Part shown: positions 1,104-15,559 of the stretch, in pieces
How the letters are laid out: each line of letters starts with the position of its first letter
How positions within the stretch are numbered: position 1 is the stretch's first letter
Assembly: GCA_024639325.1 (NCBI GenBank)
Contig: JAHEIO010000030.1
Location: 1 to 39,680 of the forward strand
Direction: 5' to 3'
Origin: Gammaproteobacteria bacterium
GTDB taxonomy: Bacteria > Pseudomonadota > Gammaproteobacteria > Arenicellales > JAANXG01
Length of the DNA stretch: 39,680 bases
Made by a program: the position numbers and the translations under genes
Notes under the pieces: model-generated
What the model was told of the DNA's origin: nothing
Seen by the model: only the letters and a program-made list of their open reading frames with translations
Databases searched by the model: none

Positions 1104-2738
1104 ATGACCATGCAGATCATCGACCCAGAGTACACCGACTTCGACCAGGTGAGGAGAGAGTTCCAGTGGAACATACCCCGTCACTTCAATATGGCGTGGG
1201 CCGTATGCGACAAACACCGTGGTCTGGATACGAGCCCCGCACTGCTGTACGAGCAGCAAGGAGGTGCACTGGAAACCTACACGTTTGGCGATCTCAGGAC
1301 GCTGTCGAACCGACTCGCAAATGGACTGGCAGCCATCGGTATCGTCAAGGGGGACCGCGTAGGGATCATCCTGCCGCAGCGGATCGAAACCGGCATTGCC
1401 CATATCGCGATCCACAAAACCGGTGCGATTTCTCTACCGTTGTCCATACTGTTTGGCCCTGAAGCCATCGAGTATCGTCTTAGGGACAGCGGCGCGAAAG
1501 CGGTGATCACAATCGGCAGACACGTCGAGATGATCCAGGACATGAAGGACCAATTGCCCGAGCTCGAGACCGTCATCACCTGCGCGGGCGAACAAGGCGA
1601 TCAGGAGCTATGGGCCTTGATCAACAGGGGTGGGGACAGCTTCGAAATGGTGGATACCCTTGCCGATGATCCGGCCCTGCTGATCTATACCTCCGGTACG
1701 ACCGGACCCCCAAAGGGGGCGCTGGTAGCCCACCGATCCCTGATCGGGAATCTGACCGGCTTCGAAATGTCGCAAAACTTTTTTCCCCGGGCGGGCGATG
1801 TCTTCTGGACGCCGGCGGACTGGGCCTGGACCGGTGGACTGCTCGATGGCCTGCTGCCGACATGGGTATACGGACGGCCGATCGTCGCTTTCGAAGGCGG
1901 CAAGTTCGACCCGGAAAAAGCGTGCAGTGTGATGGGACGGCACCGGGTTACCAATGCCTTCATACCCCCCACGGCGCTCAAAATGATTCGGCAGGTGCCC
2001 GACATCGATCGCTATCGAATAGGTCTTCGCGGCGTCATGTCCGCCGGAGAGGCCATGGGCGCCGAGCTCTACGAGTGGGGCAGGGACGTGCTCGATGTGG
2101 AGATCAACGAGATGTGGGGCCAGACCGAGTTCAATTATCTGGTCGGAAACTGCAGCGCCATTATGGCGGTCAAACCAGGATCCATGGGCAAGCCGTACCC
2201 GGGGCATGATGTAGACGCTATCGACGAAGCGGGTAATCCCGTGCGTCAGGGGGAGCAGGGGGAGCTGGCAGCCCGCACTGGTGATCCCGTCATGTTCCTC
2301 GGATACTGGAACAATGAGACGGCAACCGAACATAAAATCGTCAACGGCTGGTTTCGCACCGGGGACGTCGGTTACCGTGACGACGGCGGTTATATCTGGT
2401 TCCTGGGCCGCAAGGATGACGTCATCAGCACCGCGGGGCACCGGGTCGGGCCGGGGGAGATCGAGGACAGCCTGCTCAGGCACCCCGCGGTGGCGCAGGC
2501 GGCGGTGATAGGCAGTCCGGACGAGCTTCGCGGCAGTATCATCAAGGCATTCATCGTGCTCGCCAAGGGGCTTGCCGGGAGTGAAGACCTGAAAAAAGAG
2601 ATCCAGATGTTCGTCAAGGATCGGCTCGCGGCCCACGAGTATCCCCGCGCGATCGAATTTATCGACCGTATGCCCATGACCACCACGGGCAAAGTCAGAA
2701 GGCTCGAACTGAGAAAATTTGACCAGGGTAAGAATTGA
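1104..2738 (+). CDS. AMP-forming acyl-CoA synthetase
   Basis: 544-residue ANL-superfamily ligase that would activate a carboxylic acid to its CoA thioester through an acyl-adenylate. Motif A3 (YTSGTTGPPKG) lies near residues 194-204, the WFRTGDVG / GRKDDVI core near 415-440, and the C-terminal catalytic lysine in TTTGKVRR near residue 529. It resembles medium-chain acyl-CoA synthetases of the acetyl-CoA-synthetase-like (MACS) branch rather than long-chain FadD. The start at 1104 has a loose AGGAC upstream; a second ATG two codons later is equally possible. It is divergent from the enoyl-CoA hydratase with 123 bp between them, a likely shared promoter region. The acyl substrate is not evident. 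Confidence 0.9.
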   Translation: MTMQIIDPEYTDFDQVRREFQWNIPRHFNMAWAVCDKHRGLDTSPALLYEQQGGALETYTFGDLRTLSNRLANGLAAIGIVKGDRVGIILPQRIETGIAHIAIHKTGAISLPLSILFGPEAIEYRLRDSGAKAVITIGRHVEMIQDMKDQLPELETVITCAGEQGDQELWALINRGGDSFEMVDTLADDPALLIYTSGTTGPPKGALVAHRSLIGNLTGFEMSQNFFPRAGDVFWTPADWAWTGGLLDGLLPTWVYGRPIVAFEGGKFDPEKACSVMGRHRVTNAFIPPTALKMIRQVPDIDRYRIGLRGVMSAGEAMGAELYEWGRDVLDVEINEMWGQTEFNYLVGNCSAIMAVKPGSMGKPYPGHDVDAIDEAGNPVRQGEQGELAARTGDPVMFLGYWNNETATEHKIVNGWFRTGDVGYRDDGGYIWFLGRKDDVISTAGHRVGPGEIEDSLLRHPAVAQAAVIGSPDELRGSIIKAFIVLAKGLAGSEDLKKEIQMFVKDRLAAHEYPRAIEFIDRMPMTTTGKVRRLELRKFDQGKN

Positions 2739-2853
2739 CTGCTCGTCACGATTCGTTGCTTGTACGGCAGAGTCAGGCTATCCGGTCGAACTCTACCTCG
2801 CTTCAAGAACATCTCTGGAAACAACCGGAATCACTCCGCTGGCCCGGATCTCG

Positions 2854-3681
2854 TCAGGGCAGTATGTTATCGAATTCTTCCTGTAGCTGATCGAAGCCGC
2901 CGTACTCGAGACGGTAACCCGGCGTGTCGCGTGCCAGCCGCGCCGCTTCGTCGAAGCCGTGACCGTTGAGGTTGCGCGCATTCACCAGCGATTCCATCAA
3001 TGCGAGCCCGGACTTCGCTTTGGTTAGTTTTTCCAGCTTGAGGTCGGAATTTTTTATGAACCTGGGGAACAGTATCAAGTCGACCGTCGGGTTTTCCTGT
3101 ATGTTTTCGGGGTTCAACAGACGGAAAGGGATCATTGCGACATGTTTGCCCTGGATGGTCTGGTCTTCGTGTTTGTCCATGTCGAAAAAATGCTCCAGCG
3201 CCGCTTCGATGCCCCTTACCTTGACATTGGGTGGCCGCGCGAATGCCTGCATCGTGTTCGCGTTATGCCGGATGAATACGTACTCGTCGGTCAGATAGTT
3301 GAAGCCCCGTGCAGCCAGCCAGGTGCTGAGCGAGGTCTTTCCGCTGCCGCTTTGTCCCGGGATCAGTATGCCCCTGCTGTTTCTTGACAATGCCGCAGCA
3401 TGCAATGCCATGCCGTCCGCGTTTCGATCGATGAGTTGATGGATCGTCTCGCGAATCAGCGTCGTTGCCAGTGCTGAATTCTCGTTGCCCCGATACAATT
3501 GTTTATCACCGCAATGCAAAGTTAGTTCGCCGTCCTCCTCGCGTACGCTCAGGGTGGCATCCGGAGAATCCGACGGATCGGCATTGGTGTCGCCGTATAG
3601 AAATTCGATCAGTTCCGAGAAATCGGGGCTGTACTCGATGGATAAACTTTGGCCTGCGAAATTGACGTAGCGTGTTTTCAA
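2854..3681 (-). CDS. HprK-like serine-kinase-fold ATPase
   Basis: 275 residues related to the catalytic domain of HPr kinase/phosphorylase. The P-loop GQSGSGKT is at residues 109-116, preceded by the HAAAL segment (His94) seen in HprK relatives and followed by a Walker-B-like LTDEYVFI near 130-137. The family N-terminal DRTGG-like domain of true HprK is absent. The first 90 residues are a small domain of unknown role. HprK-like kinases next to PqqD-like proteins are known from peptide-modification and HPr-rel cassettes, where the target is not HPr. The gene is the last of a minus-strand set, 12 bp after the PqqD-like gene. I infer it phosphorylates a small molecule, peptide or neighbouring protein; the target is unknown. 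No hairpin with a T-run follows it. Confidence 0.85.
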   Translation of the reverse strand: MKTRYVNFAGQSLSIEYSPDFSELIEFLYGDTNADPSDSPDATLSVREEDGELTLHCGDKQLYRGNENSALATTLIRETIHQLIDRNADGMALHAAALSRNSRGILIPGQSGSGKTSLSTWLAARGFNYLTDEYVFIRHNANTMQAFARPPNVKVRGIEAALEHFFDMDKHEDQTIQGKHVAMIPFRLLNPENIQENPTVDLILFPRFIKNSDLKLEKLTKAKSGLALMESLVNARNLNGHGFDEAARLARDTPGYRLEYGGFDQLQEEFDNILP

Positions 3682-3693
3682 TATCGTGTGAAC

Positions 3694-3963
3694 CTATAAA
3701 GTTATCGCACCGTGATCGCTGAACATTTGCAGCGTTGCCTCGACGTCTTTCTCGACTCCGCTATCGGCCTCGGGATAAGAATCCTTGATCAGGCTTATGA
3801 TCTCGTTGACCGTGCGTTCACCATCGCAAAGCCGCCATATGATTGATGCGGTCTGGTTCATATACACGGTGGTCGTCTTGGCCGGGTGATAGAGCAGTAG
3901 CTCGTTGTCCAGCTCCTCGAGGGTGAACTCTTTGTCGGGCAGGGGTACGCTGTTGGCATCCAT
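3694..3963 (-). CDS. PqqD-like peptide-binding chaperone
   Basis: 89 residues with the PqqD/RRE fold pattern: an N-terminal beta segment, then LYHPAKTTTVYMNQTASIIWRL matching the family's LNETAALIW core in layout, then DGERTVNEIISLI and a C-terminal helix. In PqqD and related RiPP systems this winged-helix domain holds the leader of a precursor peptide and presents it to the modifying enzyme. The gene sits between a degenerate ABC transporter and an HprK-like kinase, so the three probably form one transcript. No radical-SAM enzyme, cyclase or convincing precursor gene is near. It may instead recruit a protein partner. The ATG at 3963 has only a weak ribosome binding site, and a 14-codon minigene lies just upstream. 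Confidence 0.82.
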   Translation of the reverse strand: MDANSVPLPDKEFTLEELDNELLLYHPAKTTTVYMNQTASIIWRLCDGERTVNEIISLIKDSYPEADSGVEKDVEATLQMFSDHGAITL

Positions 3964-3993
3964 TGTAAGGGCTCTGTTCTTGACAAACTTGGA

Positions 3994-4038
3994 CTATAGC
4001 AAGTCCGGTGGAGCCGCGAAAAGCGGCAATGGATGCAT
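3994..4038 (-). other. 14-codon minigene / possible leader ORF with strong RBS
   Basis: Between the ABC gene and the PqqD-like gene an ATG at 4038 opens a 14-residue frame (MHPLPLFAAPPDLL, TAG stop). It is preceded by GGAGGG at 4049-4044 with a 5-nt spacer, a better ribosome binding site than that of the PqqD-like gene 30 nt downstream. It could couple translation into the PqqD gene, attenuate the transcript, or encode a tiny peptide substrate. It is shorter than normal RiPP precursors and no homologue is recognised, so chance is a real alternative. Confidence 0.3.
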
Positions 4039-4062
4039 TCGTGCCCTCCGGCGGGATTTACG

Positions 4063-6738
4063 CTACTCCGCCCGCAGCAGATTCTGCAATGCGCCCCCGG
4101 ACGCACTCAGTTCATCGGCCCGGCCCTGCTCGATGACCCTGCCGTGTTCGAGCACGATTGTGTGTTCGAACTTCCGGGCAAGCTCCACACTGCTCAATGC
4201 GGCTATCAATCCCTTGCCGGCCATGTGTTCGATTAGGTTATCGATCATCTTGTTTTCCGCGGCGGGGTCCAAAGGACTGGTGGCGTCATTCAGGATGAGT
4301 ACATCGGGATTTTTTATCAAACCTCGGGCGATCGCAAGCTTCTGACGCTGCACCAGCGAAAGGCGCGAACCACCTATGCCGACCTCGAACTCCAGGCCGG
4401 CTTTCATGATGTCCCGTCGCAGTCCCATCGATTCTACCGTCTCCCGGATGAGTTCTCCGACGCGAGCCTGCGCGCGCGCCTTGCCGTACGCGAGGCGTCC
4501 GAACAGGATGTTGTCCTGTATCGTGATTGCGTGATTGAACTTCTCGAGGTCGAAGAAACTGACATATTCGTTGTTATCTCCGAGTTCGCCGTGGAGGGCT
4601 GCACGAGCGCTAACCAGGCGCTCCATCATGGAGTCGTCAATGAGCCCCAGGCGATGGCGGGCGGGAATGAGTTTGAACGGCAGCGACAGCAGCGAGACAC
4701 GATCCTCTCCTTTGAGGTCTTCCAGCTGGCTCTCCTCGGTGCGGTTCAATAGGCCGTGGAACATGGACAGATCGTCCGCGCTGATGAAGCTGAACTGCTC
4801 GAACAATTCACTGTCTGACGGGACGTCGGTAAACAAATCGAGCATCACATCCGCGATCTTTCGACCGATGCTCAGGAGCTCCGGGATCAATCCACACTGT
4901 TCGAGCACGGTTATGATCTGCGGATTTTTTGACAGGTTCTCGACATCGAATGACGGATCAATCGCGGTCCCGAACAGCAGGTTTTCCGCCACCGACATGT
5001 TGGTGTTGTAGTGTTCGCGGTCGAAAAATTCGACGAGGTCTTTCATCCCGGGATCGGAAAGTCGTTCGTGCAGAGCTTGCCGGGCTTCCAGGACGCAATT
5101 GGTCAGAGCGGTGTGGCTTTCATTTTTCGCAATGGTTCCGTTCAGCCCAAGCTTGTAAATATCATCCTCGAGACCGGTAACCTTGAATACTTCGAAAACC
5201 CGTTGGACGAGCTTCGCGTCGTCTTCTACGCCGGCGGCGTCGTAGTCGATCCAATCCGCGTCGACGTCGTCGGTGCTGGTTCCGGAGGCCCGCGCTTCTT
5301 TCAAATCCCGCCTGCGTTGTTTTGTCCGCTCTTCGTCGTAATCGGGTTCGATGAGCGGGCGGTGCTTGAGGCCGTAAAGAACGTTGTCCATGACCGTGCC
5401 GGCAAATATATGTGCGTTCGGTCCGACGTAAGCAGTTCTCCTTCCCAGCACCGCCTCGGGCATTTCGCTCAGGTTTTTGTCATTGATGATCAAGCGGCCC
5501 GCGGTAGGGAAGATCAATCTGGCAACCAATCTGATTACCTCGTCCGTGCCGCTGCCGGTGACGCCAACAGCGCTGGTGTGGTTGCCCAGATCGAGGCGAA
5601 AGCTTGCGCCATCGACCAGCTTCACCACCTGGTCCTCGGTGTAACTCAGATTATTTGAGAGCAACGTGCCTTTGACCGGTTCTATGTTTTCCGGGGCCTC
5701 GTTCTGCAGCTCGAGCCGCAGCATGTTCTCGGGCTGAAACTGTTCGATTATCTGGGCATATTTGACGCGGACGTCTTCCGTGATCTGGTAGAACTTCAGC
5801 AGTTCGCTCCAAGGCGGACCGATGTCCTTGTAGGCCGCCAGCACGGCAACCAGTGCGCCCAGCGACAGATCGCCCACGATGACGAAATAGCCGCCTACCG
5901 CATAGAAAAAAAAGGGCGTCAGCTGGCCCAGAAAATTGTTGAGGAACTTGATGAAGAACTTGCGCTGGTAGATCTCAAAACGAATGTCGTAAATGGTGCC
6001 GAGCTTCTGCGAGATTTTCGCCCGCTCGAAGAAGGAGGTATCGTTTGCGTGGATCTCCGTGATTCCCGAAACCGATTCACCGACGCCGTCCGCGAGTTTG
6101 CGCACCGTCTGTACTCGCTGTTTTGCCAGGACGTTGACCTTCTTCTGCAGTTTGGGTATGACATATATCTGGATCGGGTAGAGGGAAATGGCCGCCAGCC
6201 CCAGCCAGGGATCCTGGACGAATATGAATGACAAATATGTCAGCAGCAGCCCGCCTTGGAATGCGGGCAAGGCAAATGCATCGCCGATGAAGCCGCCCAG
6301 TGGTTCCGTTTCGGCAGTGATCATGGGAATGATTTCTGCCTGTGAAAGGCGCTTGAAGTGCGGCAGTGGAAAGCGGAGGATCCTGCTGTACAGCTCGAAC
6401 CGGAACCGCCGCAGCATGCGTTCACCAAGAACCCCGCGATAAACGTTGATAACGTATTTCAGGCCGCCGCCCACCAGCACCAGAGCGAGATAGAAGAAAG
6501 ACAGGGCGAGCAGATAGGAAATCTGATCGACCTCGAAACCCAGAATGTCCTCGGGTAGGTTTACACCGCCGATCGCCTCGTTGATGATGATCTTGGGAAT
6601 CTCGAGGGTGATATATACCAGCGGCATGGATAGTACCGTCAGCAGGAAGAGATATATCTGGTCTTTAGAGGTGTGCTTCAGGATGTACCGGTATATCGAA
6701 GGATCCAGTACATCCTGTCCGGCCGGATTCTTAGACAT
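4063..6738 (-). CDS. ABC exporter-like protein with degenerate, expanded ATPase domain
   Basis: 891 residues, much longer than the ~600 of a normal exporter half-transporter. Residues 1-330 form an ABC type-1 membrane domain with about six hydrophobic segments (near 29-50, 74-98, 155-175, 178-196, 265-302). An ATPase-like domain follows. Its Walker A at 392-399 is GVTGSGTD, with T and D where K and S/T belong. The signature at 793-797 is LSLVQ instead of LSGGQ. The Walker B region LILND ends in Ala819 where the catalytic Glu belongs, and the H-loop position reads SS (849-850). Between the two halves is an insert of roughly 330 residues in which a unit of about 40 residues is duplicated (551-590 and 710-747). 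It probably acts in the inner membrane as a scaffold, or as a transporter that does not hydrolyse ATP in the usual way. It leads the operon with the PqqD-like and HprK-like genes. Confidence 0.85.
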   Translation of the reverse strand: MSKNPAGQDVLDPSIYRYILKHTSKDQIYLFLLTVLSMPLVYITLEIPKIIINEAIGGVNLPEDILGFEVDQISYLLALSFFYLALVLVGGGLKYVINVYRGVLGERMLRRFRFELYSRILRFPLPHFKRLSQAEIIPMITAETEPLGGFIGDAFALPAFQGGLLLTYLSFIFVQDPWLGLAAISLYPIQIYVIPKLQKKVNVLAKQRVQTVRKLADGVGESVSGITEIHANDTSFFERAKISQKLGTIYDIRFEIYQRKFFIKFLNNFLGQLTPFFFYAVGGYFVIVGDLSLGALVAVLAAYKDIGPPWSELLKFYQITEDVRVKYAQIIEQFQPENMLRLELQNEAPENIEPVKGTLLSNNLSYTEDQVVKLVDGASFRLDLGNHTSAVGVTGSGTDEVIRLVARLIFPTAGRLIINDKNLSEMPEAVLGRRTAYVGPNAHIFAGTVMDNVLYGLKHRPLIEPDYDEERTKQRRRDLKEARASGTSTDDVDADWIDYDAAGVEDDAKLVQRVFEVFKVTGLEDDIYKLGLNGTIAKNESHTALTNCVLEARQALHERLSDPGMKDLVEFFDREHYNTNMSVAENLLFGTAIDPSFDVENLSKNPQIITVLEQCGLIPELLSIGRKIADVMLDLFTDVPSDSELFEQFSFISADDLSMFHGLLNRTEESQLEDLKGEDRVSLLSLPFKLIPARHRLGLIDDSMMERLVSARAALHGELGDNNEYVSFFDLEKFNHAITIQDNILFGRLAYGKARAQARVGELIRETVESMGLRRDIMKAGLEFEVGIGGSRLSLVQRQKLAIARGLIKNPDVLILNDATSPLDPAAENKMIDNLIEHMAGKGLIAALSSVELARKFEHTIVLEHGRVIEQGRADELSASGGALQNLLRAE

Positions 6739-6794
6739 TGATATTAGCGGCGTGGCGACAACACTATGGATGAATTCGCATAGGATAGCTTATA

Positions 6795-8099
6795 TTGTTA
6801 CATGATGCTCACAGCGGCTCGAATATGGAACCATCGCAACAGAGTGTAACCGTAGTCGTCAAAGGTTACCCTCGTTTGTCCGAGACCTTTATCGCGCAGG
6901 AGATATACGCTTTGCAGTGCCGCGGACTCAGGATGCGAATCGCCTCTCTGCGACGACCCACGGACCCCGCGTCACATCCAGTGCATGCGGAAATTCATGC
7001 ACCGATTCTGTACCTGCCGGAGTACCTGTATGAGGACCCTCGGCGGGTGCTTAGCGCCTGGCGATGGTGCCGCCGCAGGAAAGGCTACCGGGTCGCACGC
7101 AACGCCTGGCTGTCGGATTTGTCGAAGGACCCCACGCCGAACCGTGTGCGCCGTTTTGGCCAGGCGCTGGTTTTGTCGGCGGAACTGCCCGACGATGTCG
7201 GCTTTCTCTATGCGCATTTCCTTCATACACCGGCATCGGTGACGCGCTATGCCAGTTTGATGTCGCAGATTCCTTGGGCCTGCTCGGCACATGCAAAAGA
7301 TATCTGGACGACGCCTGAATGGGAAAAAAGACAAAAACTCCGAGAGTGCCGGTGGCTGGTAACCTGTACCGCCGCGAACCTCGACCACCTGCGATCTATC
7401 TCCGACGACCCTGGGAAGGCAAGCCTGGTTTACCATGGTCTCGATTTCGGTCGTTTCGACGACCCGGGCCCGCCCGTTGAATCAGTGGTATCAAGTGGGC
7501 ATGCTGCCGGCCCGGTTGAGATCGTCTCCGTCGGGCGCGCGGTTGAGAAGAAAGGGTATGGGGATCTGCTCGAGGCGCTGTCCAGATTGCCGCGAGACCT
7601 GGACTGGCGTCTCGTGCACATCGGCGGGGGAGCACTAATCAACCGGCTGCGGAGCGCCGCCGGAACTCTGGGCATTTCGGACCGGATCCAATGGCGCGGA
7701 CCTCAGCCGCACGATGAAGTCCTGCGTGCTTATCGCGCTGCCGATATTTTCGTGCTGTCGTGCAGGGTCGCCGAAGACGGTGACCGGGACGGGCTGCCCA
7801 ACGTCCTGCTCGAAGCGCAAAGCCAGAGGCTGCCATGCGTTTCTACCCGCATCTCCGGCATTCCCGAACTCGTAGAAGACGGCGTTACCGGTTTGCTGGT
7901 CGCACATAAAGACCCCGACTCCCTTGCGCGCGCGCTCCAATCGCTTGTCGAGAACCCCGAATTGCGTAAGCGCCTAGGCCAGGCGGGGTTCGAGCGCGTG
8001 CGCGAACGATTTTCCCTGACCAAGGGTATTGATACACTCGTCCGAATGTTCCCGGAATCCGTGCTCCCCGTTGAAGATCGCATATTACGCACCGCTTAA
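6795..8099 (+). CDS. GT4 family glycosyltransferase (ExoL/WcaL-like)
   Basis: About 424-434 residues with the GT-B fold: an N-terminal VTVVVKGYPRLSETFIAQEI typical of ExoL/WcaL/AmsK-type exopolysaccharide glycosyltransferases, the central VSVGRAVEKKGYGDLLEAL of the donor domain, and the DGLPNVLLEA nucleotide-sugar motif, where Asp replaces the first Glu of EX7E. It would add a sugar to a lipid-linked or other acceptor at the cytoplasmic face of the membrane. The start is uncertain. TTG at 6795 has AGGA nine bases upstream; ATG at 6825 has no clear ribosome binding site but places the conserved N-terminus closer to the start. It is divergent from the ABC gene (56 bp) and overlaps the next glycosyltransferase by 29 bp, pointing to translational coupling. 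Confidence 0.9.
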   Translation: MLHDAHSGSNMEPSQQSVTVVVKGYPRLSETFIAQEIYALQCRGLRMRIASLRRPTDPASHPVHAEIHAPILYLPEYLYEDPRRVLSAWRWCRRRKGYRVARNAWLSDLSKDPTPNRVRRFGQALVLSAELPDDVGFLYAHFLHTPASVTRYASLMSQIPWACSAHAKDIWTTPEWEKRQKLRECRWLVTCTAANLDHLRSISDDPGKASLVYHGLDFGRFDDPGPPVESVVSSGHAAGPVEIVSVGRAVEKKGYGDLLEALSRLPRDLDWRLVHIGGGALINRLRSAAGTLGISDRIQWRGPQPHDEVLRAYRAADIFVLSCRVAEDGDRDGLPNVLLEAQSQRLPCVSTRISGIPELVEDGVTGLLVAHKDPDSLARALQSLVENPELRKRLGQAGFERVRERFSLTKGIDTLVRMFPESVLPVEDRILRTA

Positions 8100-9198
8100 G
8101 TCTCCACTCCACTACCGCCCTTCCGGAGATCGCCTGGTCGCCAGGCTTTTCCAAAAATCAATCGAGGACGGTGGTTTCGATGTAGAGCTGGCCAGTGAGT
8201 TCAGATCGTGGGAGGGGGAGGGAGATCCGGAACGTCAGCAACAAATGCGGGAAACAGGGACCGAACTTGCCCATCGATTGGTCAGGGAGTATTCCGCCCC
8301 CGATAGCCAACCCGCACTCTGGTTTACCTACCATGTCTACCACAAGGCGCCGGACTGGATCGGCCCGGTCGTGTGTTCAAGCCTGAAGATCCCATACGTC
8401 ATCGCTGAAGCGTCTTTTGCCCCCAAACAGATTAACGGGCCATGGCATATCGGGCACGAGCAGTGCCGGGCGTGTATTCACTCGGCCGATGCGGTGATCA
8501 GTTTGAACCGGCAGGACGATCCCTGCCTTCGGGGCGTTTTGAAGCCGTCTTGTGAACTGGTTGAATTGAAGCCGTTTATCTCGCTTGAAGGCATTGACAC
8601 GATATCTGCTGACCGCGCGCAGGTGGCGCAAAGGTGGGGGGTGGCGGCTGATACGCCGTGGCTCGTTTGCGTGGCAATGATGCGTGAAGGGGACAAGCTT
8701 GCTTCATATCGCGAACTGGCCCAAACGCTGACCCTGGTGGAACAGGACAGCTGGCACTTGCTGATGATAGGTGACGGCCCCGCCAGGCAACGGATATCGA
8801 ACCTGTTCAAGCCGTTTGCGTCTCGTACGACGGAAACGGGGCTTTTGTCACGACAAGAAATCTACACCGTTTTGAGATCCAGTGACCTTTATGTCTGGCC
8901 GGCTGTCAACGAGGCATATGGCATGGCACTGCTCGAGGCGCAAGCCTGCGGTTTGCCGGTGGTGGCATCAGCGGTCGGGGGCATCCCGCAGATCGTTGCG
9001 CATGGAACTACGGGTCTGTTGGCACCGTCGAATGACACGCAAACGCTGAGTCGGTACATTCGCGAATTTATTCACAATCCGGATCTGGGGAAGAAAATGG
9101 GTGCGCGCGCACAAGAAAAATGCATGAGAGAGCACAATATTCATCACGCCACGACCGTCCAGGCAGAACTTTTTTCCAGGCTTATCGACAAAGCATGA
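8071..9198 (+). CDS. GT4 family glycosyltransferase
   Basis: 375-residue GT-B glycosyltransferase. The donor-binding EX7E motif is intact in NEAYGMALLEAQACGLPVVAS, followed by GGIPQIV and the LLAPSND loop. The frame is open from TTG 8029, but I chose TTG at 8071 because it begins MKIAYYAPLKSP, and many members of this group begin M(R/K)IAYYAPLK followed by a PSGDR-like loop, seen here as RPSGDR. There is no clear ribosome binding site; the 29-bp overlap with the upstream glycosyltransferase suggests coupled translation. The next gene starts on its stop codon (ATGA). Sugar donor and acceptor are unknown. Confidence 0.88.
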   Translation: MKIAYYAPLKSPLHYRPSGDRLVARLFQKSIEDGGFDVELASEFRSWEGEGDPERQQQMRETGTELAHRLVREYSAPDSQPALWFTYHVYHKAPDWIGPVVCSSLKIPYVIAEASFAPKQINGPWHIGHEQCRACIHSADAVISLNRQDDPCLRGVLKPSCELVELKPFISLEGIDTISADRAQVAQRWGVAADTPWLVCVAMMREGDKLASYRELAQTLTLVEQDSWHLLMIGDGPARQRISNLFKPFASRTTETGLLSRQEIYTVLRSSDLYVWPAVNEAYGMALLEAQACGLPVVASAVGGIPQIVAHGTTGLLAPSNDTQTLSRYIREFIHNPDLGKKMGARAQEKCMREHNIHHATTVQAELFSRLIDKA

Positions 9199-9776
9199 CT
9201 TATTTCGTAATGGTTCGGCACGGTCGTACTGAATGGAACGCGGCGGGCCGAATACAGGGACACACCGATGTTCCGCTCTCTGAAGAGGGCCGGAGGCAGG
9301 TCAGCAGACAGAGAATTCCCGGCCACTACAAAAATGCCAGATGGGTGAGCAGTCCGCTGGTGCGTGCCGTTCAGACGGCGCAATTGATGGGCTGCAGTGA
9401 TCCCGAGTTGGAACGGGCGTTGATGGAGATGAACTGGGGTGAATGGGAAGGCCTGACGCTGTCGGATTTGCGGCAAAGGCATCGGAATGCGATGCGGCAC
9501 AATGAGGACCGCGGTCTGGACTTCAGGCCCACGGGTGGAGAGAGCCCGCGGGATGTTCAGGAGCGCGTGATGGAATGGATGGGAAAGAAGGTCGACGCGT
9601 CGACGCCGGTCGTAGCCGTAACTCACAAGGGCGTGATTCGCGCGACGCTGAGCAAAGCCACCGGCTGGGACATGATCGGTCCGCCCCCCCTGGTGCTCGA
9701 CTGGACCTGTGCGCATGTGTTTTCGATGGATGAAAACAAATTTCTGAAGCTGTCCATGGCTAATGTCCCGTTGTAG
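9195..9776 (+). CDS. Histidine phosphatase (RHG) family protein
   Basis: 193-residue member of the phosphoglycerate-mutase-like phosphatases, with the phospho-accepting VRHGRTEWN near the N-terminus, the RAVQTAQ segment, the general acid region MNWGEWEG and the second catalytic histidine in AVTHKGVIRA. The start at 9195 overlaps the stop of the preceding glycosyltransferase as ATGA; the longer frame from 9120 overlaps that gene and lacks similarity. Relatives of this size (CobC, GpmB, PhoE types) remove phosphate from sugar phosphates or cofactors. Because it closes a glycosyltransferase operon, dephosphorylation of a sugar phosphate or glycosylated intermediate is a reasonable inference; removal of a phosphate placed by the nearby HprK-like kinase is possible but untested. 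Confidence 0.9.
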   Translation: MTYFVMVRHGRTEWNAAGRIQGHTDVPLSEEGRRQVSRQRIPGHYKNARWVSSPLVRAVQTAQLMGCSDPELERALMEMNWGEWEGLTLSDLRQRHRNAMRHNEDRGLDFRPTGGESPRDVQERVMEWMGKKVDASTPVVAVTHKGVIRATLSKATGWDMIGPPPLVLDWTCAHVFSMDENKFLKLSMANVPL

Positions 9777-9865
9777 CCGGAGATGGTCAAGCACGAAGAC
9801 GGCGCCGCTCACACGCCGACCCGGAGTAGCTGGAATCGTAACGTCAGTACTGAATCAGCGGTTAG

Positions 9866-10492
9866 TCAGCTGCAGGAACTTTGCAATAGTGCGATCTGTT
9901 TTCGCATGTTGTCCCTCGCCGGTGCCTCCAATTGTGCCTTGAAAAACTCCGTGGAGTACACGCTCGGCCTGTCCAAAAGCATCCGCAGGAATCCGATGTT
10001 TTTTTGCGCAAACTCCCGATCGCTCATTGCCGGAAACTCGTTTCTCACTTTGCGACTGTCTATCACAAACTCGTTCCAGGGAAGCCCGAAGCTCGACAGA
10101 TCGATATCGACGACGTATTGCTCGTCAGGCACCTGCGGAGCGTAGTCATGGATCGTCGCCATGATCAGGCGACAAACCTGCTCCACGAGGTCATCGCTCA
10201 TCATTCCCGTGGCGCTTCTTTTGAATCGCTCCGCGCTTTCCTGCTCGTTGTTGGGGGATTGCGGGTCGTACTCGACATCGTGGAACCACAACGCAAGTTC
10301 AATGGCGTTTGCATCTTCCATTGAATCGCGCGCGCGATCGAACTGCCGCAGACAGTGTTCGATATGGGCGCCGGTATGGTAGTGGCGATGCGGTTCGCTA
10401 TAGCTGTCTTCGATACCCATGAACAGGGCATCCGCCGAATCTCTGCGCCCGCAACACCGGGACCAGAGCGCGACGAACCTGTCCTGATCCAT
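9866..10492 (-). CDS. HD-domain protein, predicted metal-dependent phosphohydrolase (COG4339 type)
   Basis: 208 residues with the pattern of the COG4339 family of small HD proteins: RHYHTGAHIEHCL near residues 36-48 and LALWFHDVEYD near 66-76, giving the His...His-Asp metal ligands, with a further HDY near residue 114. Members are cytoplasmic and their substrates are poorly known, though nucleotides or phosphoesters are likely for the superfamily. It is the third gene of a minus-strand set behind a MurG-like glycosyltransferase and a cNMP-binding-domain protein, 16 bp after the latter. It converges with the histidine phosphatase gene (89 bp between them, no clear terminator). The pairing with a cNMP-binding domain hints at a nucleotide-related role, which is only inference. 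Confidence 0.85.
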   Translation of the reverse strand: MDQDRFVALWSRCCGRRDSADALFMGIEDSYSEPHRHYHTGAHIEHCLRQFDRARDSMEDANAIELALWFHDVEYDPQSPNNEQESAERFKRSATGMMSDDLVEQVCRLIMATIHDYAPQVPDEQYVVDIDLSSFGLPWNEFVIDSRKVRNEFPAMSDREFAQKNIGFLRMLLDRPSVYSTEFFKAQLEAPARDNMRKQIALLQSSCS

Positions 10493-10508
10493 GGCAAGCA
10501 GTCGTTTT

Positions 10509-11000
10509 CTACTCAGAGTCTCCGACTTCCTCGAGCCGGTTTTGCAGACGCTCTATCTCCTGGCTGAGGTTTTGCATCATGTTCGTGGATTCGGCCAGTT
10601 TGAGGCTCAACTGACGCATCACGTCCAGCGCGACTTCCGGGCTGTTGGACAGCAGTTTCAAAAAAGCATCGTTTGATATTCGCAGGGTACGGACAGGGCC
10701 CTTGGCACGCAGCGTAGCCGATCGGGGTAAATTGGTAAGGACCGCCATTTCCCCGATTATTTCATTCTTACCCCGGGTTACCACGGGCACCATGCCCTCG
10801 TCCGTCTCCACCAGGATCTCGACTTCTCCGGACATGATCACGTAAGCGCTGTCCGACGGATCGTTGATGTGGAACAGAATGTCCTGATCGTGAAATTCCA
10901 CCGCTTCGCTGGTAAATGCCATCAGCTTGAGCTTGGATGCCCCGAGTCTCGAGAACATCGGAACTTTTTTCAGTTCCTCGGCTTCCTGGTACAGATCCAC
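10509..11000 (-). CDS. Cyclic-nucleotide-binding domain protein with C-terminal coiled coil
   Basis: 163 residues from a GTG start. A single Crp-type beta-roll occupies most of the chain (PMFSRLGASKLKLMAF, then the FHINDPSDSAYVIMSGEVEILVE strands, then the phosphate-binding-cassette-like IIGEMAVLTNLPRSATLRA). After it comes a helical tail (about the last 35 residues, LKLAESTNMMQNLSQEIERL) with heptad-like spacing, and no helix-turn-helix. It is therefore not a Crp/Fnr transcription factor; it resembles sensor or scaffold proteins that bind cNMP and dimerise. The cassette carries GEMAVLTNLPRSAT, close to the GELALLxxxPRxAT consensus, so nucleotide binding is possible. The frame extends to TTG 11069; I prefer GTG 11000, which gives VDLYQEAEELKKVPMF as the natural N-terminus. 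Confidence 0.82.
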   Translation of the reverse strand: MDLYQEAEELKKVPMFSRLGASKLKLMAFTSEAVEFHDQDILFHINDPSDSAYVIMSGEVEILVETDEGMVPVVTRGKNEIIGEMAVLTNLPRSATLRAKGPVRTLRISNDAFLKLLSNSPEVALDVMRQLSLKLAESTNMMQNLSQEIERLQNRLEEVGDSE

Positions 11001-11086
11001 AGTTCGCGCTGACCCTGTCTTAAGTGAGTACTGTTGATTAAGACTGACACGCAATGAAAAGCAAATCAAGGCGAACTGTCCGGAAT

Positions 11087-12307
11087 TCAGGTAGCGCGCT
11101 GGGCGACCATCGAAGTTGGTGAGTACTGTTTCTCCAGGAGGTGTTTTACGCGCTGGTGAACAGTGGTTAGCCCGTCCAGGATGCCTCCGATATTCGCTTC
11201 ACTTGGCAGAGGTTGGTCTGGCAGTCGCCTGAGTGCGACAGCCATTGTTTTCCAGTCGCGCGGACCGTCACCATCCAGCATCTTCACCAAGCCAAGCTCC
11301 TGAGCGTGCCGCGCCCTGATCAGCTGCTCCTTGCGGGGGGTCGAACGGGGCACCAGCAGCGCGCGCTTGTTCAGGGAAAGAATTTCGCAGAACGTGTTGT
11401 ACCCGCCCATGGCAACGATACTGTCTGCATGCAGCATGAGCACTTCGATATGGCTCTCGAAGGTGAGCACCGTTACGTTGTCAAGCCGCTCGATGCGCTC
11501 ACGAAATTCATGCTGATCCGACGCCGACATGAATGGTCCCAGAACGATCACCGCTTTTTGATCCAGACCGGCATCGTGCTCATAGGCGCGAATTATCCAA
11601 TCGATCATCGTCGCACCGTCTCCGCCTCCGCCGGCGGTCACCAGAATGTACGGCTTGTCAAGCGATATGGGCTGGGTCAAGGAAGCATCATGCGGCACGT
11701 AGCGCGGCAGGTATCCCGTATATATGGTTTTGTCGCGGACCTCTGCGGGCACGTCTATTCCCTTCATAGTGTCCCCCATGAGCGGCACTCCGTATATCCA
11801 GATCTCGCTGTAAAGATCCCTGAGCGCGGGCATTGCCTTTTTACGTTCCCATTCTTCACGTAATTCCCTCGGGGCATCCATGACGTCGCGCAGACCCAGC
11901 ACGTTGTGAACCCCGCGCCCCTTGAGCATGGCCAGGGTCTCGCCTACTTCCCCGCGCAGGCCCACGGGTTCCTTGTCCACCAGGAACAGATCGGGAGAAA
12001 ACATGTCGGCTGTGTGGCGGATGATCGATGAGCGCAGGGCGAGCGTGTCGTCGAGATCGATGTGCAGTCCCAGGGAGGTGTATTCCCCATTGTGGAGTTT
12101 GATCACGCCCGGTATGCGCACGAAATCGACGCGCGCGCGAAAGTCGAAGCTGCCTATGATGGGTGACCCCGACAGTATGAGAACGCTCAATCCCTTGTAG
12201 CGATCGACGAGATCGTGTGCGATGGCCCGGCATCGCCTCAAATGCCCCAACCCGAATGAGTCGTGGCTGTAGATCAGTATTCGGGCGCCATCCAGGCGTT
12301 CTGTCAT
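11087..12307 (-). CDS. MurG-like glycosyltransferase, COG4671 type
   Basis: 406 residues. The N-terminus ILIYSHDSFGLGHLRRCRAIA is the hallmark of COG4671 predicted glycosyltransferases, GT-B enzymes distantly related to MurG/GT28. The C-terminal half contains the glycine-rich LVTAGGGGDGATM donor loop and MGGYNTFCEILSLNKRALLVPR, matching the family's nucleotide-sugar site. ATG at 12307 is used because the frame upstream of it only offers a GTG at 12352 and carries no similarity. It heads the minus-strand group with the cNMP-binding and HD genes, and lies 72 bp after the ornithine cyclodeaminase-like gene on the same strand. As the third glycosyltransferase within 6 kb it supports a glycan or glycoconjugate role for this region. 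Confidence 0.85.
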   Translation of the reverse strand: MTERLDGARILIYSHDSFGLGHLRRCRAIAHDLVDRYKGLSVLILSGSPIIGSFDFRARVDFVRIPGVIKLHNGEYTSLGLHIDLDDTLALRSSIIRHTADMFSPDLFLVDKEPVGLRGEVGETLAMLKGRGVHNVLGLRDVMDAPRELREEWERKKAMPALRDLYSEIWIYGVPLMGDTMKGIDVPAEVRDKTIYTGYLPRYVPHDASLTQPISLDKPYILVTAGGGGDGATMIDWIIRAYEHDAGLDQKAVIVLGPFMSASDQHEFRERIERLDNVTVLTFESHIEVLMLHADSIVAMGGYNTFCEILSLNKRALLVPRSTPRKEQLIRARHAQELGLVKMLDGDGPRDWKTMAVALRRLPDQPLPSEANIGGILDGLTTVHQRVKHLLEKQYSPTSMVAQRAT

Positions 12308-12379
12308 CGGGGGTTTTGTGCTATCACATGCCGCTGACCGCTCAGGGTACACCAGAAATGCCGCATTTAGCAGTCCCGG

Positions 12380-13330
12380 TCAGTGGTTTTCGTTGATTCT
12401 TTCCATCAGGAAGCGGGTCGTCATCAGGTCCAGATGGCCGCCGCCGCCATTTTTGAACAGCGTGATTTGATCGTCTCCGGCCCTGCCGGTATGCCGGCCG
12501 CGGCACAAATCGTAGAGATCGGCAACGATGTCCTCCTCGTCGATGACCCCGTTGGCGATGGGAATCATGATTTCACCGACATCGTGAACGGTGGTTGCTC
12601 TTGAATCGACGAAGGTCGTTGCGACACGAAAACAATCGTCGTCCGCTTCCCTCATGTCGGGCGTGAAAGCACCGACGAGATCCAAGTGGGTGCCGGGGCG
12701 CAACCACTCCCCCTGAACAAGAGGTTGTTTGGCCATGGTTGCACAGGATATGACGTCTGCCGAGCGCACCGCTTTCTCGAGTACCGCAGCGTGTTCTATC
12801 GTAACCCCGGATAATTCGAGTTCGTCTGCGAGTTGGCGGGCTTTACCTGCCGACCGGTTCCATATCGAGACGGACCGGATCGAAGGTCGGGCCGCGCAGT
12901 GGGCGGATATCAGGTGTGCCGCCATCGCACCTGCCCCGACCATGAGTAAATGATCCGCGTCTTTGCGGGCGAGATACATCGCCCCGAGAGCCGAATCCGC
13001 CGCTGTTTTCCTGAAGGTCAACGCCGTCCCGTCAACCGCAGCCAGCGGAGCTCCGCTGTCGCCGTCGAACAGAACATAGATCGCCTGCACCGCGGGAAGA
13101 GAGCGGGTCGGGTTGCCGGGAAAAATCGTCACCAGTTTCATCCCGACTGCCTTGTCATGCTGCCATGCGGCACGGATCAGCAGGTGGTTGGTCACCCCGT
13201 CGCCGACGGGTTGCGCGAGTAGCAGGTCCCGCATCTCCTGGGTGTCTTCACGGTGAAGTCGATCGAGTCCTCTGATCAGCGACGGGAAATCCAGCGCATC
13301 GTGGACCTGCCCGGCATCAATGAATCGCAT
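12380..13330 (-). CDS. Ornithine cyclodeaminase / mu-crystallin family protein
   Basis: 316-residue NAD(P)-dependent enzyme of the OCD/mu-crystallin family, whose members include ornithine cyclodeaminase, alanine dehydrogenase and delta-1-pyrroline-2-carboxylate reductase. Seen are the KLVTIFPGNP and FRKTAADSALGAMYL segments of the catalytic domain and the Rossmann loop MVGAGAMAAHLISAH. The Rx(T)AA(x)SALA-type segment is closer to the ketimine reductase branch than to true ornithine cyclodeaminase, but the substrate cannot be fixed. The start at 13330 (MRFIDAGQV) has a good GGGGAG ribosome binding site; the longer frame to 13384 is unsupported. It is divergent from hyuA with 152 bp between, suggesting joint control with the hydantoinase locus. 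Confidence 0.88.
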   Translation of the reverse strand: MRFIDAGQVHDALDFPSLIRGLDRLHREDTQEMRDLLLAQPVGDGVTNHLLIRAAWQHDKAVGMKLVTIFPGNPTRSLPAVQAIYVLFDGDSGAPLAAVDGTALTFRKTAADSALGAMYLARKDADHLLMVGAGAMAAHLISAHCAARPSIRSVSIWNRSAGKARQLADELELSGVTIEHAAVLEKAVRSADVISCATMAKQPLVQGEWLRPGTHLDLVGAFTPDMREADDDCFRVATTFVDSRATTVHDVGEIMIPIANGVIDEEDIVADLYDLCRGRHTGRAGDDQITLFKNGGGGHLDLMTTRFLMERINENH

Positions 13331-13451
13331 CACTCTCCCCTTTTGATTGTGCGGGCCCATCGGGCCGGGAATTCCGCCACTCACCCCGAAATCAGAATTC
13401 AGCGAAAGCGCGCAGAAGTAGTGTTGTCCGTGGAATTCTGTGGTAAATTTT

Positions 13452-13461
13452 GTGTATACAC
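13452..13461. promoter_or_regulatory. Palindromic candidate operator for the GntR/FCD regulator
   Basis: GTGTATACAC is a perfect 10-bp palindrome 21 bp upstream of the hyuA start, inside the divergent region between the ornithine-cyclodeaminase-like gene and hyuA. GntR regulators of the FadR/FCD group commonly bind palindromes centred on GTATAC or GT-N(2-3)-AC, and such a regulator is encoded at 19682-20431 at the end of the same locus. A related half-site GGTGTAC follows at 13462-13468. Assignment of the site to that regulator is inference. Confidence 0.4.
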
Positions 13462-13482
13462 GGTGTACGCATAGGTTGCTTT

Positions 13483-15552
13483 ATGAGCTGGACTATCGGC
13501 GTAGACGTCGGCGGTACATTTACCGATTTTTTTGTCCTGGATGACGCCTCGCACAAAATCCATGTGGCCAAATGGCCCTCCACGCCCGCGGATCCCGCGC
13601 AGGCGATTCTGCAAGGTCTGCGGAAAATGTCCAGGCAGTTCGGGGTCGTGCTCGAGCAGGCCCGTCATCTGTCCCATGGTACCACGGTCGGCACCAACGC
13701 GTTGATCCAGCGCAAGGGCGGCAGGCCCTTGCTGATCACGACCCGGGGTTTTCGGGACCTTCTCGAGATCGGCCGTCAGACCCGTCCCCATATGTATGAT
13801 CTCAATAAGGACAATCCACCGCCTCTGGTGCCGCGTCGGAGACGTCTCGAAGTGCATGAACGAATCAACGCCGACGGCACCGTGCTTCAGGATATCGATC
13901 GGGAGCAGGTCGAGGACTTGCTCGATTCCATAGATGATGATGTCGACTGCGTTGCCGTGTGTTTCCTGTTTTCTTTCGTCAACAAGAAACACGAAAGGGC
14001 TGTCGCGGAGATGATCCAGAATAAAGCAGATAGAAGGTTCCATGTTTCGATTTCATCGGAGGTTCAGCCGGAGTTCCGCGAATACGAGCGGTTTTCCACG
14101 ACCGTGCTGAATGCTTACCTGCAGCCTGTAATGGCACACTATCTTGAGAACCTCGAGCAGGGAGTGCTCAAGGCGTTGCCTCGAGCTCGCCTCGGTATAA
14201 ACCAGTCCGCAGGCGGACTGATGTCAGCCCGGAGAGCAAGGTCGTTTCCGGTGCGCACCGCTCTGTCCGGGCCGGCGGCGGGGGTTGTCGGTGCGGTATA
14301 CGTGGCGCGCTCGGCCCGGCGCGCCAATGTCATTACGCTTGATATGGGTGGAACGAGCGCGGATGTCGCGCTCGTTCGGGACTACCGTGCGGACGTCGCC
14401 TATGAAAGGCAGGTAGCCGGATTCTCGGTCCGGCTGCCCATGGTGGACATCGAGACGGTGGGTGCGGGCGGTGGTTCGATCGCGTGGTTCGACCGGGATG
14501 GATTGCTGAAAGTCGGCCCGGCGAGCGCCGGTGCCGAGCCGGGTCCGGCATGCTACAACAGGGGTGGGGAAAGGCCCACCGTTACGGATGCCAACCTGAT
14601 ACTGGGCAGGTTGTCCCCCGGGGGGCTGATCGGTGGTGAGATGGAGCTCAGCATGGCGCTCGCACGACAGGCCATGGAACCCATTGCCGCAGAGCTCGGA
14701 AGTTCCATCGAGCATGCGGCCTGGGGCGTACTCGGGATCGTTGTGTCCAACATGGTCCGCACCATCCGAACGGTTTCCGTCGAGCGCGGTCATGATCCCA
14801 AGGGTTTCAGCCTGATGCCTTTTGGAGGCGCGGGACCCCTACACGCACGGGATGTCGCCGTTTCGCTGGGGATGGAAGAGATCGTCGTGCCGCTGTCGCC
14901 GGGCATCGTCTGTGCCCAGGGCCTGATCGTCTCGGATCTCAAAGAGGATTTTGTGATCAGCCATAGAACGTTGGTCGAAAAGGGCGAGGAAAAGAGCTGT
15001 CGATCGATCGTTGAAGAACTGCTCGGTCTTGCGAATGAATGGTTCAAATCCGAACAGATCGACCCTGATCGCAGACATCTGGAACTTCGTCTCGACGCCC
15101 GCTACGTCGGACAGAACTTCGAACTCGAGGTTGGAATTGCGCGGGGAGGCACGCTCGATCCTGAATGTATGCCCGATTCGGAAAGACTGAAGGAGCTGTT
15201 CTTCGAAGCGCATGAAACCAGCTATGGATACTTCAACCCCGATGACGAGGTGGAGGTAATCAACTTCAGGTTGACCGCACGTGCCGGGCGTACATTGGAA
15301 AGCCCATCGGGGCCGTCAGCATCGCGCAGCGGGCAGCCGCAGGTTGCTGCCGTCCGGGAAGTCTGGTTCGAAGACGGCGGACCGGTGGAGACCGGCATCG
15401 TCGATCGCGGTCAGCTTCAGCCCGGTCACGAGATAACGGGGCCCGCGATTATCGAGCAGCTGGATACCACAACGCCGGTGTATCCGGGCGACCGGGCTGA
15501 GGTGGACAAAGCGGGCAATCTGATCATCAGAATCGACGGCAATCAGGAATGA
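13483..15552 (+). CDS. hyuA: Hydantoinase/oxoprolinase subunit A
   Basis: 689 residues, standard for the ATP-binding HyuA subunit of N-methylhydantoinase/oxoprolinase-type enzymes. The N-terminal phosphate loop IGVDVGGTFTDFFVLDD begins at residue 5, GTTVGTNALIQRKG follows near residue 70, and the second ATPase motif TLDMGGTSADVALVRD is near residue 285, with the SVERGHDP and PFGGAGPLHA segments after that. These enzymes open cyclic amides (5-oxoproline, hydantoins, N-methylhydantoin) using ATP, and relatives carboxylate ketones. The start at 13483 (MSWTIGVD) is chosen over the upstream frame start at 13450. hyuB follows after 7 bp. A strand of the acetone/acetophenone carboxylase branch cannot be excluded, but no third subunit is present. 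Confidence 0.92.
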   Translation: MSWTIGVDVGGTFTDFFVLDDASHKIHVAKWPSTPADPAQAILQGLRKMSRQFGVVLEQARHLSHGTTVGTNALIQRKGGRPLLITTRGFRDLLEIGRQTRPHMYDLNKDNPPPLVPRRRRLEVHERINADGTVLQDIDREQVEDLLDSIDDDVDCVAVCFLFSFVNKKHERAVAEMIQNKADRRFHVSISSEVQPEFREYERFSTTVLNAYLQPVMAHYLENLEQGVLKALPRARLGINQSAGGLMSARRARSFPVRTALSGPAAGVVGAVYVARSARRANVITLDMGGTSADVALVRDYRADVAYERQVAGFSVRLPMVDIETVGAGGGSIAWFDRDGLLKVGPASAGAEPGPACYNRGGERPTVTDANLILGRLSPGGLIGGEMELSMALARQAMEPIAAELGSSIEHAAWGVLGIVVSNMVRTIRTVSVERGHDPKGFSLMPFGGAGPLHARDVAVSLGMEEIVVPLSPGIVCAQGLIVSDLKEDFVISHRTLVEKGEEKSCRSIVEELLGLANEWFKSEQIDPDRRHLELRLDARYVGQNFELEVGIARGGTLDPECMPDSERLKELFFEAHETSYGYFNPDDEVEVINFRLTARAGRTLESPSGPSASRSGQPQVAAVREVWFEDGGPVETGIVDRGQLQPGHEITGPAIIEQLDTTTPVYPGDRAEVDKAGNLIIRIDGNQE

Positions 15553-15559
15553 CGAGGCA

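Follow-up and report, generated by a model that had tools for sequence, protein, structure and literature searches.

A split Arenicellales locus with probable relationship to the Sinorhizobium meliloti PPP cluster, encoding an ABC-exporter-fold protein with a degenerate nucleotide-binding domain

The closest described counterpart of the gene set analysed here is a surface polysaccharide cluster of Sinorhizobium meliloti, the alfalfa symbiont. Travin et al. 2023 (PMC10128002) report that an uncharacterised surface polysaccharide, PPP, requires nine genes of the smb21252-smb21271 interval, that PPP protects S. meliloti from the peptide antibiotic phazolicin, and that disruption of smb21252 or smb21265 lowers the minimal inhibitory concentration of phazolicin from 1.47 to 0.18 ug/ml. 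Seven of these nine genes are induced under Myxococcus attack (PMC10315480), and the literature we searched holds nothing on PPP beyond two 2023 papers. Here we describe nine genes at positions 2854-12307 of a 39,680-nucleotide stretch (contig JAHEIO010000030.1; hereafter the window) that is contig 78 of a 4.69 Mb draft genome of the order Arenicellales (G000). We estimate the probability at about 0.7 that seven of the nine genes form one half, the one in the window, of a conserved locus for an envelope polysaccharide of the kind known as PPP in S. meliloti; the other two encode an HprK-like kinase and a PqqD-like peptide chaperone.

The window's genes and the PPP cluster

All nine open frames were confirmed and are arranged as three strand sets, as a preliminary description of this DNA had stated, and the family names it gave are supported by family scans, the HprK-like protein only as a distant member. 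The core of the locus is an 891-residue membrane protein with the fold of an ATP-binding cassette (ABC) exporter and a degenerate nucleotide-binding domain (NBD), encoded on the minus strand at 4063..6738 (ABC_membrane 65.7 bits, plus ABC_tran matches). On the plus strand lie two GT4 glycosyltransferase genes, GT4a (6825..8099; Glycos_transf_1 125 bits, 2.5e-36) and GT4b (8071..9198; Glycos_transf_1 99 bits, 3.6e-28), the start of the latter being set at 8071, where the homologue alignment begins, rather than at 8029. The GT4b stop codon is overlapped by a histidine phosphatase gene (9195..9776, plus strand; His_Phos_1 156 bits, 9e-46). The third set, on the minus strand, comprises an HD-type phosphohydrolase-like protein of the COG4339 type (9866..10492; phage phosphohydrolase PHROG 3e-27), a cyclic-nucleotide-binding (cNMP) protein whose exact start is uncertain (10509..11069; cNMP_binding 69 bits, 2.8e-19) and a COG4671/GT28-like glycosyltransferase of the first of two types (11087..12307; Glyco_tran_28_C 27.8 bits, cut-off 22).

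On S. meliloti pSymB the cluster starts with a cyclase gene and continues with polysaccharide lyase, Yej-type genes, COG4671, GT4, COG4671, methyltransferase, ABC, cNMP and FkbM methyltransferase; GT4b and a deacetylase-like gene lie upstream of it, at a distance of a few kb. The window's proteins are 51% (COG4671; 26% to the second copy), 54% (GT4a), 38% (ABC), 45% (cNMP) and 36% (GT4b) identical to those of S. meliloti, and the ABC family is found on 331 plasmid records, chiefly of Rhizobium and Sinorhizobium. Because SMb21257 carries the annotation of a truncated adenylate cyclase (PMC12542648), we place the locus in the smb21252-smb21271 interval. The GT4b match (L197:20806-21888, 36% identical) is probably smb21252. 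If the genes of strain R28 are numbered backwards from smb21271, the first COG4671 gene would be smb21265 and the ABC gene smb21269. The S. meliloti KPS genes smb20804/smb20805 had also been considered as the match and were dropped; the locus maps near smb21257. Two further features of this region are worth recording. In the S. meliloti 1021 pSymB sequence (NC_003078) the ABC gene occupies two overlapping frames (L195:15724-18373), and in R28 a single one; the difference lies in the length of a C-run near codon 136 and could be a sequencing error, a strain mutation or length variation. In addition, the locus adjoins a sulfated-polysaccharide cluster with three sulfotransferases (L197:1381-16724), which falls in a region activated by Clr and cyclic AMP (PMC5498481).

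In genera other than the window's, the core genes form one continuous run with varying combinations of a second COG4671 gene, genes for a deacetylase-like protein, a methyltransferase and a class III cyclase, and an importer of the YejABEF type. The second COG4671 enzyme and the deacetylase-like protein are absent from the window; a search located sites elsewhere in the window's genome, and one contig, C109, holds these genes together, with the cyclase 61%, the second COG4671 38%, the deacetylase-like protein 43% and the methyltransferase 51% identical to their relatives, and YejE, YejB, YejA and YejF 75, 79, 65 and 73% identical. Because the remaining genes sit together on C109, we regard the window as half of a split locus. 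G037, a member of the same genus, shows the same split, with the other half on its contig C63. Thus, the genus shares with the PPP cluster the ABC gene, GT4a, GT4b, both COG4671-type enzymes (the window's second being on C109), the cNMP and deacetylase-like proteins, the cyclase and a nearby Yej importer, but differs in a locus spread over two contigs, a histidine phosphatase (which we did not find at the S. meliloti locus), an HD protein and the adjoining HprK-PqqD pair. Moreover, the window's cNMP gene sits with the HD gene and not directly after the ABC gene, and S. meliloti has a polysaccharide lyase and an FkbM methyltransferase in addition. Since the locus is split and its second COG4671 and deacetylase-like genes lie elsewhere, we describe it as related to the PPP locus and not as a PPP locus proper.

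The association of these genes was assessed in two samples: 109 genomes of the order, searched for the ABC protein, GT4a and HprK, and named genomes scanned with an alignment of the ABC family, which gave 545 candidate loci, of which the best 80 were examined, 42 of these having full flanks. Among the 109 genomes, 54 were positive for the ABC protein, 55 for GT4a and 35 for HprK. ABC and GT4a agreed in 106 (both in 53, neither in 53, ABC alone in one, GT4a alone in two; Fisher 1.7e-27, uncorrected for shared ancestry), lying within 8 kb of each other in 40 genomes and at separate sites in 13 more. The best 80 of the 545 loci belong to Gamma- and Alphaproteobacteria, including Azospirillum, Nisaea, Thalassobaculum, Skermanella and Motiliproteus. 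At the 42 loci with full flanks, GT4b was present in 42, GT4a in 41, cNMP in 39, the second COG4671 in 39, the first in 38, YejF in 34, the histidine phosphatase in 34, the deacetylase-like gene in 33, the methyltransferase in 21, HD in eight and the cyclase in six. Clustering exceeds chance for seven of the nine genes, and ABC, GT4a, GT4b, the COG4671-type enzyme, the histidine phosphatase, cNMP and HD belong to a conserved locus that Arenicellales share with Alphaproteobacteria. The conserved glycan-making set put forward in the preliminary description holds, then, for the membrane protein, the glycosyltransferases and the phosphatase, and fails for HprK and PqqD. Its remark that the nine genes contain no Wzx/Wzy pair was correct, and the chemistry of the conserved set is undescribed; as for a match to a characterised polysaccharide locus, which it had named as a possible objection, the PPP cluster provides one in genetic terms and not in chemical ones.

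The YejABEF-type importer, with YejF as the gene tested, adjoins the locus in two classes (an example is L273:4912-10895), and this adjacency suggests either a functional tie or a very old gene order. Yej transporters handle peptides and muropeptides (PMC8406287, PMC9790009). One could therefore read the ABC protein as a partner of the importer that exports or repels peptides, with the glycosyltransferases acting separately, and the YejF-type genes at 34 of the 42 loci speak for it. We consider this very unlikely, as GT4b accompanies ABC at every one of those loci and GT4a at all but one, and smb21252 and smb21265, which carry the phazolicin phenotype themselves, are both glycosyltransferases.

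The nature of the product also has to be weighed. The closest solved structures to the histidine phosphatase are alpha-ribazole phosphatases, and glucosyl-3-phosphoglycerate phosphatase is matched as well. This match, the scores of GT4b with the BshA and MshA models (all far under cut-off) and the deacetylase-like gene at 33 of the 42 loci would suit a small phosphorylated glycoside, made as in mycothiol or glucosylglycerate synthesis by a GT4 enzyme, a phosphatase and a deacetylase. However, a surface glycan is the better match to the four glycosyltransferases of each full locus, to the polysaccharide lyase and the nucleotide-sugar dehydrogenase that stand beside the S. meliloti locus, and to the phazolicin-barrier phenotype; we found no histidine phosphatase at that locus. 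A small glycoside is thus an unlikely product. For the envelope polysaccharide that we favour, we infer that the GT4 and COG4671-type enzymes would build the glycan in the cytoplasm from nucleotide sugars, that the histidine phosphatase would take phosphate off an intermediate, and that the deacetylase-like enzyme and the methyltransferase, encoded elsewhere in the genome, would modify the glycan, and that the ABC-exporter-fold protein would carry the product across the inner membrane.

The HprK-PqqD pair

The PqqD-like peptide chaperone (3694..3963, minus strand; PqqD 53.9 bits, cut-off 23.4, 2.4e-14) and the HprK-like kinase (2854..3681, minus strand), which has an intact P-loop, GQSGSGKTS, are neighbours that we judge to lie outside the polysaccharide locus. 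The kinase is a distant member of its family, with HprK_rel_A at 3.8e-27 and 95 bits (cut-off 200) and Hpr_kinase_C at 23.7 bits (cut-off 33.3). The described system nearest to the pair is the HPr-rel-A cassette, made of kinase A (TIGR04352) and a PqqD-type protein (TIGR04353), usually with PF14907. Adjacent HprK-like and PqqD-like genes are common to both, and TIGR04352 is the best NCBIfam match of the window's kinase; yet the kinase stays under that cut-off (95 bits against 200), as does the PqqD-like protein under that of TIGR04353 (20.2 bits against 35), and the window's genome has its PF14907 genes, NTP_transf_5, on other contigs and not by the pair. Our literature searches returned no match for COG4671, nor for an HprK-related kinase together with PqqD.

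The preliminary description had taken all nine genes for one system. On such a reading, a peptide or carrier would be phosphorylated by HprK, escorted by PqqD, glycosylated, and exported by the ABC protein. PqqD-HprK pairs are indeed known from peptide-modification clusters, as the NCBIfam names reflect, and the order ABC-PqqD-HprK on one strand is common to the window, G039 and G037. Against this, HprK and ABC are not associated in the 109 genomes, the ABC gene being present in 18 of 35 genomes with HprK and in 36 of the 74 others (p = 0.84). HprK lies within 20 kb of ABC in just three genomes (G000, G037 and G039), each a member of the window's genus, g1, and among the best 80 of the 545 named ABC loci, HprK and PqqD are present at one, on a same-genus contig, and at none outside the genus. 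In G038, the fourth genus member, an acyl-CoA synthetase-HprK-PqqD block occupies a separate contig, where the gene upstream is aminopeptidase-like and not ABC. The nearest relatives of the window's pair are in G035, of the same family (PqqD 60%, HprK 50% identical), as a trio with NTP_transf_5, and G035 has neither the ABC gene nor GT4a. Of 18 loci outside the genus, 15 have an NTP_transf_5 gene next to the pair, and all four genus members carry such genes on contigs away from the pair. Furthermore, the 99- and 12-base gaps around PqqD leave no room for a peptide precursor. Family scans limited to the nine genes showed no precursor peptide, cyclase or maturase among them. A single nine-gene system was rejected on co-occurrence, and we hold it to be very unlikely.

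HprK-PqqD is instead a separate cassette of the peptide-modification type, linked to the ABC gene only in this genus, where it would have come to adjoin that gene, and its grouping with the other seven genes is no trait of the wider family. Since HprK is independent of ABC and the pair is missing at the named ABC loci outside the genus, the objection that these homologues occur mostly without glycosyltransferases, also raised in the preliminary description, applies to HprK and PqqD; it does not apply to ABC, which nearly always comes with glycosyltransferase genes. Both the window and G039 have a TATAGT-like hexamer within the 99-base ABC-PqqD gap, from which the pair might be transcribed separately. 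Elsewhere in the window's genome, a second PqqD-like gene and a small lasso B2-like open reading frame, with an NTP_transf_5 gene nearby, are found on contig C296 (L189:9514-12119), adjoining ribosomal-protein-like and dnaB-like genes, all these names being taken from sequence. At another locus (L178:4370-6775), an 802-residue frame combines an HprK-like protein with domains of glycosyltransferase families 2 and 25.

The ABC protein and its cyclic-nucleotide partner

The best structural matches of the ABC protein are described exporters. Its AlphaFold model (predicted local distance difference test score, pLDDT, 81) has ABC exporters as best PDB matches (VIA Z about 29), and its modelled NBD matches that of ComA with Z 30.7 and a root-mean-square deviation of 1.9 over 239 residues. 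With exporters of the MsbA, NdvA and PCAT1 type it shares the fold of the transmembrane domain (TMD) and the NBD. It differs from them, however, in degenerate Walker A, Walker B, signature and H-loop motifs, in an insert of about 300 residues and in an inverted pattern of conservation, and it scores 167 bits with the MsbA model TIGR02203, under the cut-off of 602.

We counted the NBD motifs in 69 aligned members of the ABC family, with 30 MsbA proteins encoded by Arenicellales genomes as control. The window's Walker A reads GVTGSGTDE (residues 392-400; 5539..5565, minus strand), and its lysine position holds K in 45, R in 16 and other residues in eight members (T in four of these); K is found in 29 of the 30 controls. 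The R. etli and S. meliloti proteins have lost this lysine. The ABC signature LSGGQ is replaced by GGSRLSLVQRQK (residues 789-800; 4339..4374, minus strand), with both glycines mostly substituted across the family. Walker B, VLILNDATSPLD (residues 813-824; 4267..4302, minus strand), has asparagine for the aspartate, a position with N in 50, S in 13 and D in five members as against D in all controls. Similarly, the catalytic glutamate is kept in 41 of 69 and the H-loop histidine in 21 of 69, both being invariant in the control. Mean pairwise column identity is 0.69 in the TMD and 0.45, 0.40 and 0.43 in the first NBD half, the insert and the second NBD half, the reverse of the usual order seen in MsbA (TMD 0.46, NBD 0.57). 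The S. meliloti YejF at the PPP locus has canonical Walker motifs.

The insert (residues ~465-770; 4429..5346, minus strand) splits the NBD between the Q-loop and the signature region and holds a 42-residue internal repeat, 40% identical (blastp 1.8e-7). Modelled alone it reaches pLDDT 90, and its fold gave no Foldseek match at E <= 0.001. As ABC helical subdomains head its VIA matches, with Z 5.2-5.5 across some 75 residues (below the level trusted alone), the insert may derive from a duplicated helical subdomain of the NBD. The NBD is thus shown to be degenerate family-wide and split by an insert that is predicted to be structured. Degenerate NBD motifs also mark a family of paralogues, long ABC proteins of some 840 or 1000-1050 residues, which are encoded at L035, L036, L039-L045 and L051 and not beside GT4 genes; those of L043, L044 and L051 stand beside mechanosensitive-channel-like and MarC-like open reading frames, named from sequence.

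How such a protein would work can be pictured in two ways. In the first, export is driven by ATP in the usual way, the protein contributing the degenerate site and a canonical half-transporter, encoded at some other place, the intact one, on the pattern of TM287/288 or TAP; the best structural matches do include heterodimeric exporters with one degenerate site, and the Walker A lysine is often kept. To our knowledge, known heterodimeric ABC exporters keep the Walker B aspartate, unlike this family, where it is lost in 64 of 69 members, and no partner half-transporter is conserved at the locus. We regard this account of the export step as possible but doubtful. Alternatively, as the NBD is degenerate and split throughout the family, ATP hydrolysis would be weak or absent. 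It is tempting to speculate that the ABC protein gave up hydrolysis in two proteobacterial classes and that its highly conserved TMD moves or anchors the glycan, gated by a partner that binds cyclic nucleotides and driven by a source other than the NBD, a tentative idea as it stands.

The cNMP protein would provide the gate. Its phosphate-cassette Gly, Glu, Arg and Ala are each present in 41 of 41 relatives, and a family scan gave no DNA-binding domain match. Several relatives have a cyclase gene at the locus, as do R. etli and S. meliloti, and in the window's genome one lies beside the C109 half; the class III cyclase would supply the nucleotide by which the small cNMP protein gates the ABC protein. 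The HD protein, which has an H...HD motif and no above-threshold Pfam match in the family scan, could be the matching phosphodiesterase. We propose that the ABC protein is a cyclic-nucleotide-controlled polysaccharide exporter. Anti-phage defence was also considered for this gene set and dropped; PADLOC returned only generic matches to the NBD and the cNMP domain.

Several points weigh against this picture of a PPP-type locus and its exporter. The p-value for the co-occurrence of ABC and GT4a takes no account of shared ancestry, and the cyclase falls within just six of the 42 named loci. The need for the ABC gene in S. meliloti is deduced from gene order and tag counting, and no such locus has a chemically defined polysaccharide. 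The pair stands beside the ABC gene in three genus members whose ABC proteins differ by up to 27%, which leaves room for some local function of HprK and PqqD. Finally, as the Walker A lysine (45 of 69) and the D-loop aspartate (63 of 69) are largely kept, the ABC protein may still bind ATP, and even hydrolyse it slowly.

Surroundings and significance

The closest named contig with the ABC gene, 96% identical, comes from an uncultured gammaproteobacterial metagenome-assembled genome, and further close ones are labelled Arenicellales. By sequence reading without a family scan, one flank of the nine genes holds an enoyl-CoA hydratase and an acyl-CoA synthetase, and the other cyclodeaminase-like and hydantoinase-like genes; at 12380-17227, an ornithine-cyclodeaminase-like gene faces a hydantoinase-like HyuA/HyuB pair, and in G038 a hydantoinase-like pair likewise adjoins the COG4671 gene. 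Promoter and terminator scans of 2700-12600 showed no enrichment over shuffled sequence.

These results define a PPP-type locus across two classes and include a presumed exporter whose ATPase domain is degenerate family-wide beside an intact cyclic-nucleotide-binding protein, a combination of which we found no description in the literature searched. They tie a hitherto unassigned gene set of marine Arenicellales to a rhizobial envelope polysaccharide that is known genetically and chemically undefined, and that blocks an antimicrobial peptide.

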